A stretch of 64,000 bases of DNA from Halorubrum salsamenti (GTDB lineage: Archaea; Halobacteriota; Halobacteria; Halobacteriales; Haloferacaceae), in contig NZ_VCNL01000002.1 in NCBI RefSeq assembly GCF_007671685.1, forward strand, positions 1 to 64,000. The letters are read 5' to 3'. Made by a program: the position numbers and the translations under genes. Below, piece after piece: positions 31,765 through 36,061 of the stretch. The notes under the pieces were generated by a model, which saw only the letters and a list, made by a program, of their open reading frames with translations, was not told the DNA's origin and ran no database searches. Within the stretch, counting starts at the first letter, position 1. Every line of letters starts with the position of its first letter.

Positions 31765-33036
31765 ATGCCAGAAGTAAAATTCGAGGTCGACGTCGACAGG
31801 CCGCCGGACGAGCAGCCGACAGCCAAACCGTTCAACCGGTGGCACCCCGACATTCCGGCCGTCGTGGAGGCGGAACCCGGGGAAACGATTCGGCTCGAAG
31901 CGCTGGACTGGACGGGTGGACAGATCTCGGACAACGACGATCCGAACGAGGTCAGAGACGTGGACCTCACGCAGGTGCATTACCTCGCCGGTCCCGTCCG
32001 TGTCGAGGGGGCGGAGCCCGGCGACCTGCTGAAAGTCGAGTTTCACGACATGGGGCCGCTGAACGACCGCTCCGAATTCGGCTTCACCGGAACGTTCTCC
32101 CAGCAGAACGGCGGCGGCTTCCTCACCGACCACTTCCCGGACGCCGCGAAGTCGATCTGGGAGATCGACGGGTACACCGTCTCCTCGCGGCACGTCCCAG
32201 ACGTCCGATACGAGGGGAAGATCCATCCCGGACTCGCGGGCTGTGCGCCGAGCCAGGAGCTCTTAGAGGAGTGGAACGAGCGGGAGCAGGAGCTGATCGA
32301 CAAACACGAGGCGGACCCGAGTTCGATACCGAACCACCCGACCGGAGAGGCGGAGCCGGGCGTCGCGAACCCGCCGACCACGGAGGGAGCACAGATGGGC
32401 GAGATGGACCCGGAGGAGGCGGAGGCGGCGGCCGAGGAGGCCGCGAGGACGGTGCCGCCGCGCGAACACGGCGGAAATCACGACATCAAGGACCTCTCTA
32501 TCGGCTCGACGGTGTACTTCCCCGTCTACGTCGAGGGGGCGAACTTCGCGCTCGGCGACTTCCACGCCTCGCAGGGCGACGGCGAGATCACGTTCTGCGG
32601 CGCGATCGAGATGGCGGGCTACGCGGACGTGGAGTTCGACCTGATCAAGAACGGCATGGAGGAACACGGCGTCGACCATCCGATCTTCGAGCCGGGCCAC
32701 CGCGGTCCCAACTTCGAGGACTACATCACGTTCTGCGGCTACTCCGTCACCGAGGACGGCGAGCAGCGATACATCGACTCGCACACCGCCTACCGCCGGG
32801 CGTGTCTGCAGGCGATCGACTACCTCAAGAAGTTCGGCTACACGGGCCAGCAGGCGCTCCACATCCTCGGGACGGTCCCGGCGGAAGGGCGCCAGAGCGG
32901 CGTCGTCGACGTCCCGAACGCGTGTTCGACGCTCGCGGTGCCGAAGGGCGTCTTCGAGTTCGACATCTCCCCCGGAAACCTGGACAACCGGGCTGACCGC
33001 GGCGACCTCGTCGTCACCGACGATCCGCTCGGGTGA
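31765..33036 (+). CDS. fmdA: Formamidase/acetamidase
   Basis: Hydrolyses short-chain amides to ammonia and the acid. The 423-residue FmdA/AmdA-family enzyme carries the metal/substrate motifs LAGCAPSQELLEEWNERE, VEGANFALGDFHASQGDGE and the family C-terminus DVPNACSTLAVPKGVFEFD. An acidic Ala/Glu insert of about 65 residues falls at about 170-235, before GGNHDIKDLSIGSTVYFPV. The start is ATG 31765, about 40 bases after an AATATTTTTG box. Single gene; no urea or amide transporter adjoins it. Confidence 0.93.
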   Translation: MPEVKFEVDVDRPPDEQPTAKPFNRWHPDIPAVVEAEPGETIRLEALDWTGGQISDNDDPNEVRDVDLTQVHYLAGPVRVEGAEPGDLLKVEFHDMGPLNDRSEFGFTGTFSQQNGGGFLTDHFPDAAKSIWEIDGYTVSSRHVPDVRYEGKIHPGLAGCAPSQELLEEWNEREQELIDKHEADPSSIPNHPTGEAEPGVANPPTTEGAQMGEMDPEEAEAAAEEAARTVPPREHGGNHDIKDLSIGSTVYFPVYVEGANFALGDFHASQGDGEITFCGAIEMAGYADVEFDLIKNGMEEHGVDHPIFEPGHRGPNFEDYITFCGYSVTEDGEQRYIDSHTAYRRACLQAIDYLKKFGYTGQQALHILGTVPAEGRQSGVVDVPNACSTLAVPKGVFEFDISPGNLDNRADRGDLVVTDDPLG

Positions 33037-33172: not shown

Positions 33173-34885
33173 ATGGCATTCACGACCGACACGACAGAGG
33201 CATCGAGTAGCGAAGAGCGACCCGACGATCTGCTCGGCCCGGGAACGGCGATCGCGGCGACGCTCCGGAGTACGCTCGGACCGAACGGGCTGGACAAGAT
33301 GGTGATCGACCGGAGCGGAAGCGTCGTCGTGACGAACACCGGCGCGACCGTTCTCGACGGGTTGGAGATCGACGCCCCGATCGGACGCGTGATCCGGAAC
33401 GCGATTCAGGCGCACGCGCGACACGTCGGCGACGGGACCACCACGACGGCCCTGCTCGTCGGCGAACTCCTCGACGCGGCCGACGGGCTCGCCGAGCGAG
33501 GGCTCCACCCGACGTCTATCGTCGACGGGTACGCCAGCGCGGTCTCACACGCCCGCGACGCCCTCGACGAGCTCAGCGTCCCGGTCGATCCGGACGACGA
33601 GCGGCTCGGCGAAGTCGCGTCGACGGCGGTCACCGGCCGCTGGGACGCGGCCGCGACCGAGCGGTTCGCCGACATCACCGTCGACGCCCTGCGCGCGGTC
33701 GACTGCGACGCCGCCCGACTCACGATTCACGCGTACGCCGGCGGCGGACTGGCCGACTCCGAGCGGGTGAACGGGATCCTCGTCGACGTCGACAGCTCGT
33801 CGACGACGATCGACGGGTTCGGGACCGACGACCGCCGGGCGCTCGCCGATCCGACGGTCGCGCTCGTCGACGCCGAAGTGACGCCACCTCCTTCCGAGGC
33901 GTCGGGGACGGTGACGGTCCGGAACCCCGACGACCTCGCGGCCGTCAGGGAGCACGAACGGGCGGCCGGCGACAGGCTGATCCGATCGGTCGCGGACCGC
34001 GACGTCGACGTGCTCGTGTGTCAGAAGTCGATCGACGACGCGGTGAAGACCGACCTCGCGCGCGCCGGCGTGCTCCCCGTCGAGCGGACCAGACGCGACG
34101 AGTTCGACGCGATCGCTCGCGCCGCAGGCGCGACCGCGGTCGCCGCGGTCGCCGACCTCGATCGGGACGCGCTCGGGACGGTCGGATCGGTTCGCCGCCG
34201 GTCGGTCGGCGGCGGCGCCGTGATCGAGTTCTCCGGACTCCCGGGCGAGTCGCACGAGTCGCTGCTCCTGCGCGGCGGGACGCCGCACGTCGCCGCGGAG
34301 ACGAAGCGGATCGTCGAGGACGGTCTCGCGGTCGCGCGCCACGCCGCCAGCGGCGGCGGCGTCGTTCCGGGCGGCGGCGCCGGTATGATGGCCGTCTCTC
34401 GCGCCGTGGCTGACCGCGCATCGAGCGTCGATGACCGGTCGGCGCTCGCGCTCGAGGCGTTCGCCGACGCGGTGACCGTGGTCCCGCGAACGCTCGCGAG
34501 GAACGCGGGCGCGGATCCGATCGACGCGCTGGTCGCGCTCCGCAACCGCCGCCACGACGGGGAGACGGCGGCCGGCGTCGCGCGCTCCGGCGCGGTCCGC
34601 GACATGTTCGACGCGGGCGTAGTCGAGCCGGTCGCGGTCCCCGCGCGCTGTCTCGAGACCGCGGTCCGGACCGCGGGGCTCGTGTTGCGAATCGACGAGA
34701 CGCTGGACGCGGAGCCGATCGACGGATCCGAGGTCGACGGCGACGGACGCCGCGGACACGCTCACGGCGGTGACGACGGCCACGGTCACCGAGGCGGCCA
34801 CACCCACGGAAGCGGCCACACCCACGGCGGCGAACACGGAGGCGGCGGCCACGACGGGGGGTACCCGTGGGCGCTGAGCCACTGA
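33173..34885 (+). CDS. Divergent thermosome-like (group II chaperonin) protein with His-rich tail
   Basis: A 570-residue TCP-1/cpn60-type protein. ATPase landmarks are recognisable but altered: LGPNGLDKMVID, VGDGTTTTALLVGELL, and GVVPGGGAGMM. The N-terminal segment before GPGTAIAATLRS is shorter than in normal thermosome subunits. The C-terminus is not the usual GGM/GGF repeat but a 44-residue Gly/His/Asp tail (527-570) with 11 histidines, ending WALSH. It is probably a third, fast-evolving subunit or a specialised homologue rather than the main folding machine. The tail could bind Ni, Zn or Cu. Confidence 0.85.
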   Translation: MAFTTDTTEASSSEERPDDLLGPGTAIAATLRSTLGPNGLDKMVIDRSGSVVVTNTGATVLDGLEIDAPIGRVIRNAIQAHARHVGDGTTTTALLVGELLDAADGLAERGLHPTSIVDGYASAVSHARDALDELSVPVDPDDERLGEVASTAVTGRWDAAATERFADITVDALRAVDCDAARLTIHAYAGGGLADSERVNGILVDVDSSSTTIDGFGTDDRRALADPTVALVDAEVTPPPSEASGTVTVRNPDDLAAVREHERAAGDRLIRSVADRDVDVLVCQKSIDDAVKTDLARAGVLPVERTRRDEFDAIARAAGATAVAAVADLDRDALGTVGSVRRRSVGGGAVIEFSGLPGESHESLLLRGGTPHVAAETKRIVEDGLAVARHAASGGGVVPGGGAGMMAVSRAVADRASSVDDRSALALEAFADAVTVVPRTLARNAGADPIDALVALRNRRHDGETAAGVARSGAVRDMFDAGVVEPVAVPARCLETAVRTAGLVLRIDETLDAEPIDGSEVDGDGRRGHAHGGDDGHGHRGGHTHGSGHTHGGEHGGGGHDGGYPWALSH

Positions 34886-34987: not shown

Positions 34988-36061
34988 ATGCAACACCGCG
35001 AACTCGGGAACTCCGGCGTCGAGGTCTCGGAGATCGGTTTCGGCGCGTGGGTCGTCGGCACCGACTGGTGGGGCGACCGGTCGGACGAACAGGCGGTCGG
35101 GATGGTCGAGGACGCGCTCGACGCGGGCGTCACCTACGTCGACACCGGCGACGTGTACGGCCACGGCGACAGCGAGGAGATCATCGGGAAAGCGATCGAC
35201 AGTCGCCGCGACGAGGTAACGCTCGCGACGAAGATCGGTTACGACTTCTACAACAACCCGCAGGCCGGTCACGGGGAGCTCCCGAAGGAGCTCGACCGCG
35301 AGTACCTCGAGACCGCGTTCGAGCGCTCGCTCGACCGGCTCGACACCGATTACGTCGACCTGCTCCAGCTTCACAACGCCAACGTCGACGACGTCACGCC
35401 CGAGGTCCGGGACCTCCTCGCCGAGTGGAAGGATTCGGGACGCGTCCGCGCGCTCGGCTGGGCGCTCGGCCCCTCCATCGGTTGGCTCGCGGAGGGCGAC
35501 GCCGCCGTCGAGTACGAGGAGTTCGACGCGGTCCAGACCGTCTTCAACCTCTTCGAGCAGCAGCCCGGCCGCCACTTCGTCGACGCCATCCGCGAGTCCG
35601 GCTCCGACACCTCGGTGATCGCCCGCGTTCCGCACTCCTCGGGCCTGCTCAACGAGCAGGTGACGCCGGACACGGTCCTCGAGGACGGCGACCACCGATC
35701 GCATCGACCCAAAGAGTGGTACGAGACCGGCTGGGAGAAGCTCGAAGCGATCCGCTTCCTCGAAGACCCCGACGGCGTCGAGGGGACCCGAACGATGGCG
35801 CAGGCCGCGATCCGCTGGCTGCTCGCGCACGACGAGGTCGCCTCCGTGACGCCGACGTTCCGCGACGGCGACGACATCGCCGAGTGGAGCGCGGCGAGCG
35901 ACGTACCGTCCCTCTCTGACGCGGAGTACGACCGCGTCCAGGAGCTGTACGCGCGTAACTTCGACATCGACCGCGACGACGGGATGGACGCGCTCCGGAC
36001 CTCCGTCGACGGCGAGGACATCGAGGCCGCCGGCCTCGACAAGCGCGCCGCGTCGTACTGA
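34988..36061 (+). CDS. Aldo/keto reductase
   Basis: 357 residues with a TIM-barrel AKR fold: VTYVDTGDVYGHGDSEEIIG (catalytic Asp and Tyr), LATKIGYDF with the Lys, and VDLLQLHNANVDDV with the His. It is closest in style to general stress 69/YajO-like AKRs. The start is ATG 34988, with only a weak GCTAAGTG box about 27 bases upstream; a better CCTTATAAAT box lies at about 34912-34921, roughly 70 bases upstream. The physiological substrate is unknown. Confidence 0.9.
   Translation: MQHRELGNSGVEVSEIGFGAWVVGTDWWGDRSDEQAVGMVEDALDAGVTYVDTGDVYGHGDSEEIIGKAIDSRRDEVTLATKIGYDFYNNPQAGHGELPKELDREYLETAFERSLDRLDTDYVDLLQLHNANVDDVTPEVRDLLAEWKDSGRVRALGWALGPSIGWLAEGDAAVEYEEFDAVQTVFNLFEQQPGRHFVDAIRESGSDTSVIARVPHSSGLLNEQVTPDTVLEDGDHRSHRPKEWYETGWEKLEAIRFLEDPDGVEGTRTMAQAAIRWLLAHDEVASVTPTFRDGDDIAEWSAASDVPSLSDAEYDRVQELYARNFDIDRDDGMDALRTSVDGEDIEAAGLDKRAASY

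Follow-up and report, generated by a model that had tools for sequence, protein, structure and literature searches.

The gene at positions 33173-34885 (plus strand) of the window, the 64,000-nucleotide stretch of Halorubrum salsamenti DNA analysed here, apparently belongs to a new thermosome clade dedicated to formamidase. It encodes a group II chaperonin subunit that is probably (at roughly two chances in three) specialised for a single client, the neighbouring formamidase FmdA. The genes of this clade encode the chaperonin fold and a conserved C-terminal tail, form a separate group among thermosomes, co-occur near-perfectly with fmdA, lie close to it, evolve fast and have relaxed catalytic residues.

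The open reading frame starts with ATG and encodes 570 aa. A preliminary description made from the sequence alone had called it a divergent thermosome-like protein with a tail of 11 histidines, which was borne out by the ORF, the Pfam match and the His count. Pfam Cpn60_TCP1 (PF00118) covers residues 27-514 with an E value of 2.4e-132 and a score of 442 bits against a cut-off of 34.3. A sequence search of the PDB gave an ancestral group II chaperonin and Mm-cpn as best matches, while the AlphaFold model matched Mm-cpn (5w79) with a TM score of 0.88 by target length, the top Foldseek matches all being group II chaperonins. With Cpn60_TCP1 over its full length and the group II fold, the protein is a group II chaperonin by fold and motifs, lying outside thermosome alpha or beta: it falls short of the NCBIfam thresholds for thermosome alpha (374.7 against 450 bits), thermosome beta (360.3 against 400) and thermosome_arch (370.1 against 671), has no GGM tail and falls on the non-canonical side of the thermosome tree (see below). 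The same genome holds two further chaperonin genes, both GGM-tailed, with which the window protein shares 34-36% identity, making it the third and most divergent of the set.

The N-terminus and the ATPase motifs had likewise been described as divergent. The canonical N-terminal motif PMIVLSE..QR..GKDAQ is indeed absent, and the model of the window protein has no pairing of N- and C-terminal strands such as that in the AlphaFold model of another member (L123). The ATPase motifs are for the most part intact, the ATP-binding motifs LGPxG (here LGPNG), GDGTT (GDGTTT) and GGG (GGGA) being present together with D87 and Asp383, and the divergence lies in NDG, which has become NTG. In the family alignment the incoming residue, Thr56 (33338-33340, plus strand), replaces the catalytic Asp equivalent to Mm-cpn D60 and GroEL D52, leaving the window protein with just one of the two catalytic Asp residues, the full pair being a feature of active subunits rather than of the fold family. 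The second catalytic residue, Asp383 (34319-34321, plus strand; equivalent to Mm-cpn D386), is retained here and is Thr, Asn or Gly in 15/46 relatives. Among the 46 aligned members both catalytic Asp residues are kept in 20, exactly one is lost in 25 and both are lost in one. All 46 retain the ATP-binding motifs together with D87, which indicates that nucleotide binding is under selection. W157 (in TG[RK]WD), S209 and E304 are among the residues that are 100% conserved within the clade without being shared by the two canonical paralogues.

The C-terminal tail (residues 509-570; 34697-34882, plus strand) is predicted to be disordered (AlphaFold pLDDT < 50), with the 11 His contained in a Gly/His/Asp-rich segment at residues 527-570. 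The 53-residue linker preceding GYPW has 10 His compared with 1.95% His in the body of the protein (binomial P about 7e-8), and canonical haloarchaeal thermosome tails have 0-2 His, mostly 0. The best-conserved part of the tail is its final nine residues, GGYPWALSH (residues 562-570; 34856-34882, plus strand), a motif conserved across 61 members. Members mostly end in a His-rich linker, often containing HDHDH, and then a near-invariant G-Y-P-W-[AST]-[ILV]-[GS]-H, typical ends being HDHDHDHGPGGLVRSTEGYPWAVGHSMGH and HDHDHGHDHGDGHGGVEATGGYPWAVGH. The terminal G, P, W and H are found in 61/61 members and the Y in 60/61, a conservation that is in part selected for since most members were recovered with a DNA pattern for the motif, members in G345, G003, G023, G024 and G034 having been found without it. 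Positions that the pattern left free are restricted as well, with A after W in 58/61 and just G or S before H, and the G345 member, which was found via FmdA, ends GGHPWAIGHSTDGHGH (GGHPWAIGH). Synonymous codons vary within the motif, indicating that selection acts on the protein, and the His statistics together with motif conservation under varied codons led us to reject a chance or low-complexity tail.

The earlier reading, which is supported in part, had been staked on the tail being shared by close relatives. It is kept across many haloarchaeal families, with at least one H-x-H in the linker of 40/46 members. By one delimitation the number of His in the linker runs from 1 to 10, and a few members (L095, L096 and L098 among them) have one or two His and no HxH but keep the GYPW end. 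The number of His is thus variable whereas GYPW...H is near-invariant, making metal binding unlikely as the sole job of the tail. Recognition is probably its constant function, with metal a common but dispensable addition, since some members are down to one or two His and still have GYPW..H.

When 91 thermosomes were compared without their tails in an unrooted maximum-likelihood tree from a quick search, a branch with SH-aLRT support of 100 separated all 55 GYPW proteins from three canonical types, of which two have GGM tails and one has no tail. The three chaperonin genes of Haloferax volcanii, each individually dispensable (PMC3235422), would correspond to the canonical types and make the GYPW clade the fourth haloarchaeal group II chaperonin clade. 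The window protein has the features that define this clade, namely the GYPW..H end, monophyly and an adjacent fmdA. The clade evolves fast: between the genome of the window and a Haloarcula-type genome (G053) the GYPW chaperonins are 43% identical, compared with 81% for alpha, 75% for beta and about 85% for FmdA. Haloarcula japonica and some species of Halorubrum (H. lipolyticum, H. halophilum, H. kocurii and sp. Hd13) have close orthologues, and in every close or moderately distant orthologue a usually His-rich linker leads into a terminal GGYPWALSH or a slight variant of it. The DNA pattern G-Y-P-W-x-[ILVFM]-x-H matched 61/392 genomes of the order, against about a dozen for a reversed-pattern control, and apart from a few chance matches these were the C-terminal ends of chaperonin ORFs, intact in 55 genomes and present as fragments alone in two. 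A phylum-wide search with one exact pattern gave no plausible member outside the order, its seven scattered matches looking like chance. Among genomes with all chaperonins listed, the GYPW chaperonin was never the sole one. Separately, in a genome of the same genus as the window (G031; L135:6962-9802), a canonical alpha-like thermosome has its GGM tail replaced by a roughly 380-aa C-terminal extension that found no counterpart when 51 further genomes of this genus were searched; its neighbours are a transposase gene and a DEAD-box helicase gene, the latter truncated where the contig stops.

Immediately upstream of the chaperonin gene, 136 bp away on the same strand, lies its presumed client and co-transcribed partner fmdA (31765-33036, plus strand), encoding a formamidase of 423 aa that matches the NCBIfam equivalog FormamaseFmdA (572.6 bits, cut-off 500), PF03069 (E 1.3e-164) and PDB 2wkn (E 2e-145). 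A full-length fmdA was found at most 6.1 kb from the chaperonin gene in 61/61 distinct loci, with a median of 96 bp (three named plasmid records repeat loci already counted). Clustering of neighbouring genes put the FmdA family beside nearly every member, with wider stretches resolving two apparent exceptions. The pair can be seen in public annotation, with fmdA followed by 'TCP-1/cpn60 chaperonin' in Natronomonas pharaonis PL131 and Haloarcula marismortui pNG700 (chaperonin gene RR_RS02550 in H. marismortui) and a further named locus in Natribaculum luteum; some chaperonin copies are on plasmids. The two genes occur in four arrangements, with fmdA on the same strand upstream, on the same strand downstream and in both opposite-strand forms, indicating that rearrangement has either left the genes side by side or brought them together again, and this variation rules out plain shared ancestry of one operon as the source of the linkage. 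The distances of thermosome and FmdA also correlate (Mantel r 0.50, with 0/1000 permutations as high), a value that includes shared species history and was set aside as evidence of co-evolution for that reason.

Other recurring neighbours are CrcB-like genes, uncharacterised small proteins and three kinds that at several loci fit formamide use, namely formate dehydrogenase-type genes, a second fmdA and, in 18 loci, an AmiS/UreI amide channel. Downstream of the chaperonin in the window is an aldo/keto reductase gene (34988-36061, plus strand; PF00248 E 1.1e-47), which takes this place in 10 loci, all in the window's own group, and is probably not part of the core pair. Two uncharacterised families without a Pfam match adjoin the pair, one of about 204 aa in 22 loci (for example L079:10357-10968) and one of about 88 aa in 15 loci (L123:5491-5754); both are possibly regulators of formamide use. 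A CrcB-like (fluoride channel) gene pair often adjoins the formamidase-chaperonin cluster, as at L079:5706-6445.

The association extends to the presence and absence of the two genes. Searches with PF03069 over 392 genomes separated full-length FmdA (at least 540 bits) from distant amidases (at most about 152 bits), and a control search of Haloferax volcanii gave no PF03069 match. Full-length FmdA was present in 58 genomes and the chaperonin in 56 of these, so that both genes occurred in 56 genomes, full-length fmdA alone in two, an intact chaperonin alone in none and neither in 334. Both fmdA-only genomes are incomplete MAGs, G111 being 71% complete with fmdA on a 5.9 kb contig and G150 79% complete, while in G245 and G291, without full-length fmdA, the chaperonin is present just as remnants, an ORF cut down to 196 aa and a fragment of 68 aa. 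On a slightly stricter 55/3/0/334 table Fisher's P is about 5e-64, a figure that ignores shared ancestry. By manual reading of the tables, 18 genera are polymorphic and in each, the two incomplete MAGs aside, both genes vary together. The link is not reported in the searchable papers: no open-access paper was found to treat formamidase and thermosome together, and of those on formamidase, chaperonin and archaea the two haloarchaeal ones examined use the words in unrelated contexts; a formamide review makes no mention of chaperones.

From these associations we infer a chaperone role toward FmdA. The subunit would assemble into rings, either by itself or together with canonical subunits, and these would capture newly synthesised FmdA and help it to fold or to form oligomers in high salt, with flexible 60-residue tails hanging into the chamber at the equator. 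Group II chaperonin tails point into the chamber, which would place the GYPW..H end within reach of an enclosed client or of the adjacent subunit. In the AlphaFold models of two members (the window protein and L123) the tail was left undocked. The terminal GYPW..H may act as a short recognition motif for FmdA or for the neighbouring subunit, the His-rich linker could hold a transition metal, and the loss of one catalytic Asp in many members might give a slow cycle or a reliance on partner subunits. Bacterial FmdA is made without such a partner, as for the Delftia enzyme (2wkn) and for Methylophilus FmdA, which was heterologously expressed (cited in PMC5052560), indicating that FmdA has no intrinsic need for it.

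Linkage by itself does not separate folding from regulation or scaffolding, and several other readings have to be weighed. Two are compatible with a dedicated client. The GYPW chaperonin may join a canonical thermosome ring as a client-specifying subunit, adding its tail and a formamidase-specific apical face, a reading to which we give a little under even odds. In keeping with this it never stands as the sole chaperonin in the genomes with all chaperonins listed, one catalytic Asp is lost in 25/46 members and both in 1/46, and the window protein has neither the canonical N-terminal segment nor, in its model, the paired strands that the L123 model has; the 20/46 members with both catalytic Asp residues, however, could work alone. 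A metal step may also be added, the His-rich tails gathering zinc, nickel, copper or iron for insertion into FmdA during folding inside the chamber. That the tail binds metal is plausible by analogy, the HDHDH-type linker of most members, with HxH in 40/46, resembling the Cu(II)-binding tail DHDHHHGHAH of mycobacterial GroEL1 (PMC10170517) and the nickel-binding, His/Cys-tailed GroES of Helicobacter pylori, HspA (PMC7840056). A possible destination for the metal is suggested by a review (PMC4602302) in which SCOP2 serves to relate the Delftia enzyme 2wkn to a bi-zinc formamidase, and the HGGN and GDxH..GDGE motifs are conserved across solved FmdA/AmdA. The wide variation in His, down to one or two without HxH in members that keep the GYPW end, and the independence of bacterial FmdA from any such helper nevertheless leave delivery of metal by the tails a tentative and rather unlikely addition. 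The fuller proposal, in which a single-client chaperonin both folds and metallates formamidase, with GYPW..H guiding and the HDHDH tails loading metal inside the chamber, is doubtful. The preliminary description had also raised a free metal chaperone unconnected with folding, which was rejected as the lead since the gene travels with fmdA and a client-dedicated chaperonin is the better reading.

The remaining readings dispense with folding. As a scaffold, enzyme cage or regulator the protein would sequester or stabilise mature FmdA, or sense its state, and the weakened ATPase residues of many members and the tight linkage with the enzyme speak for such a role; it is improbable given the ATP-binding motifs and D87 kept in 46/46 aligned members and a protein with no regulatory domain. 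An ordinary additional paralogue of the thermosome, its low-complexity tail drifting and its gene hitch-hiking beside fmdA on plasmids and islands, would account for the plasmid copies and for the variation in linker length and His number. Against this, GYPW..H is invariant over deep divergence, adjacency has been rebuilt in four arrangements and an intact chaperonin without fmdA was found in 0/392 genomes, making it very hard to credit.

Chaperonins are regarded as general folding machines. A chaperonin dedicated to FmdA would, if true, be a prokaryotic paralogue whose gain and loss go with those of a single metabolic enzyme. Such a pairing of one chaperonin with one client would allow the choice of client, the part played by the C-terminal tail and the requirement for ATP hydrolysis to be studied in genetically tractable archaea through a simple phenotype, growth with formamide as the source of nitrogen. 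It would also supply a proposed function for genes so far annotated just as 'thermosome subunit alpha' or 'TCP-1/cpn60 chaperonin family protein'.

Compared with known systems, the clade shares full-length Cpn60_TCP1, the chaperonin fold and the ATP-binding motifs with canonical archaeal thermosome subunits (the haloarchaeal GGM-tailed types and the tail-less third), differing from them in its separate position, its His-rich/GYPW tail in place of GGM, its catalytic Asp substitutions, its strict fmdA linkage and its accessory rather than universal occurrence. Mycobacterial GroEL1 is likewise a second chaperonin with an HDH-rich C-terminal tail in place of a Gly/Met tail, and its tail peptide binds metal (PMC10170517). 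GroEL1 is, however, a group I protein with no GYPW end and no known link to a single enzyme, and the likeness of the tails is convergence from independent origins. HspA of H. pylori is a chaperonin-system protein with a C-terminal extension that binds metal and affects hydrogenase activity (PMC7840056). It is a co-chaperonin rather than a chamber subunit and is unrelated in sequence. The BBS chaperonins MKKS/BBS6, BBS10 and BBS12 are dedicated to one task. These group II relatives evolve fast, their residues for ATP hydrolysis being altered and their ATP-binding motif retained (PMC2846930), but they are vertebrate CCT-derived, serve another client and have no His/GYPW tail. Fast evolution and an altered hydrolysis site are found in the clade described here, with a single client indicated solely by the linkage to fmdA, and by analogy the window chaperonin may in its way of working come closest to dedicated chaperonins of the BBS kind, a likeness of function that implies no common origin.
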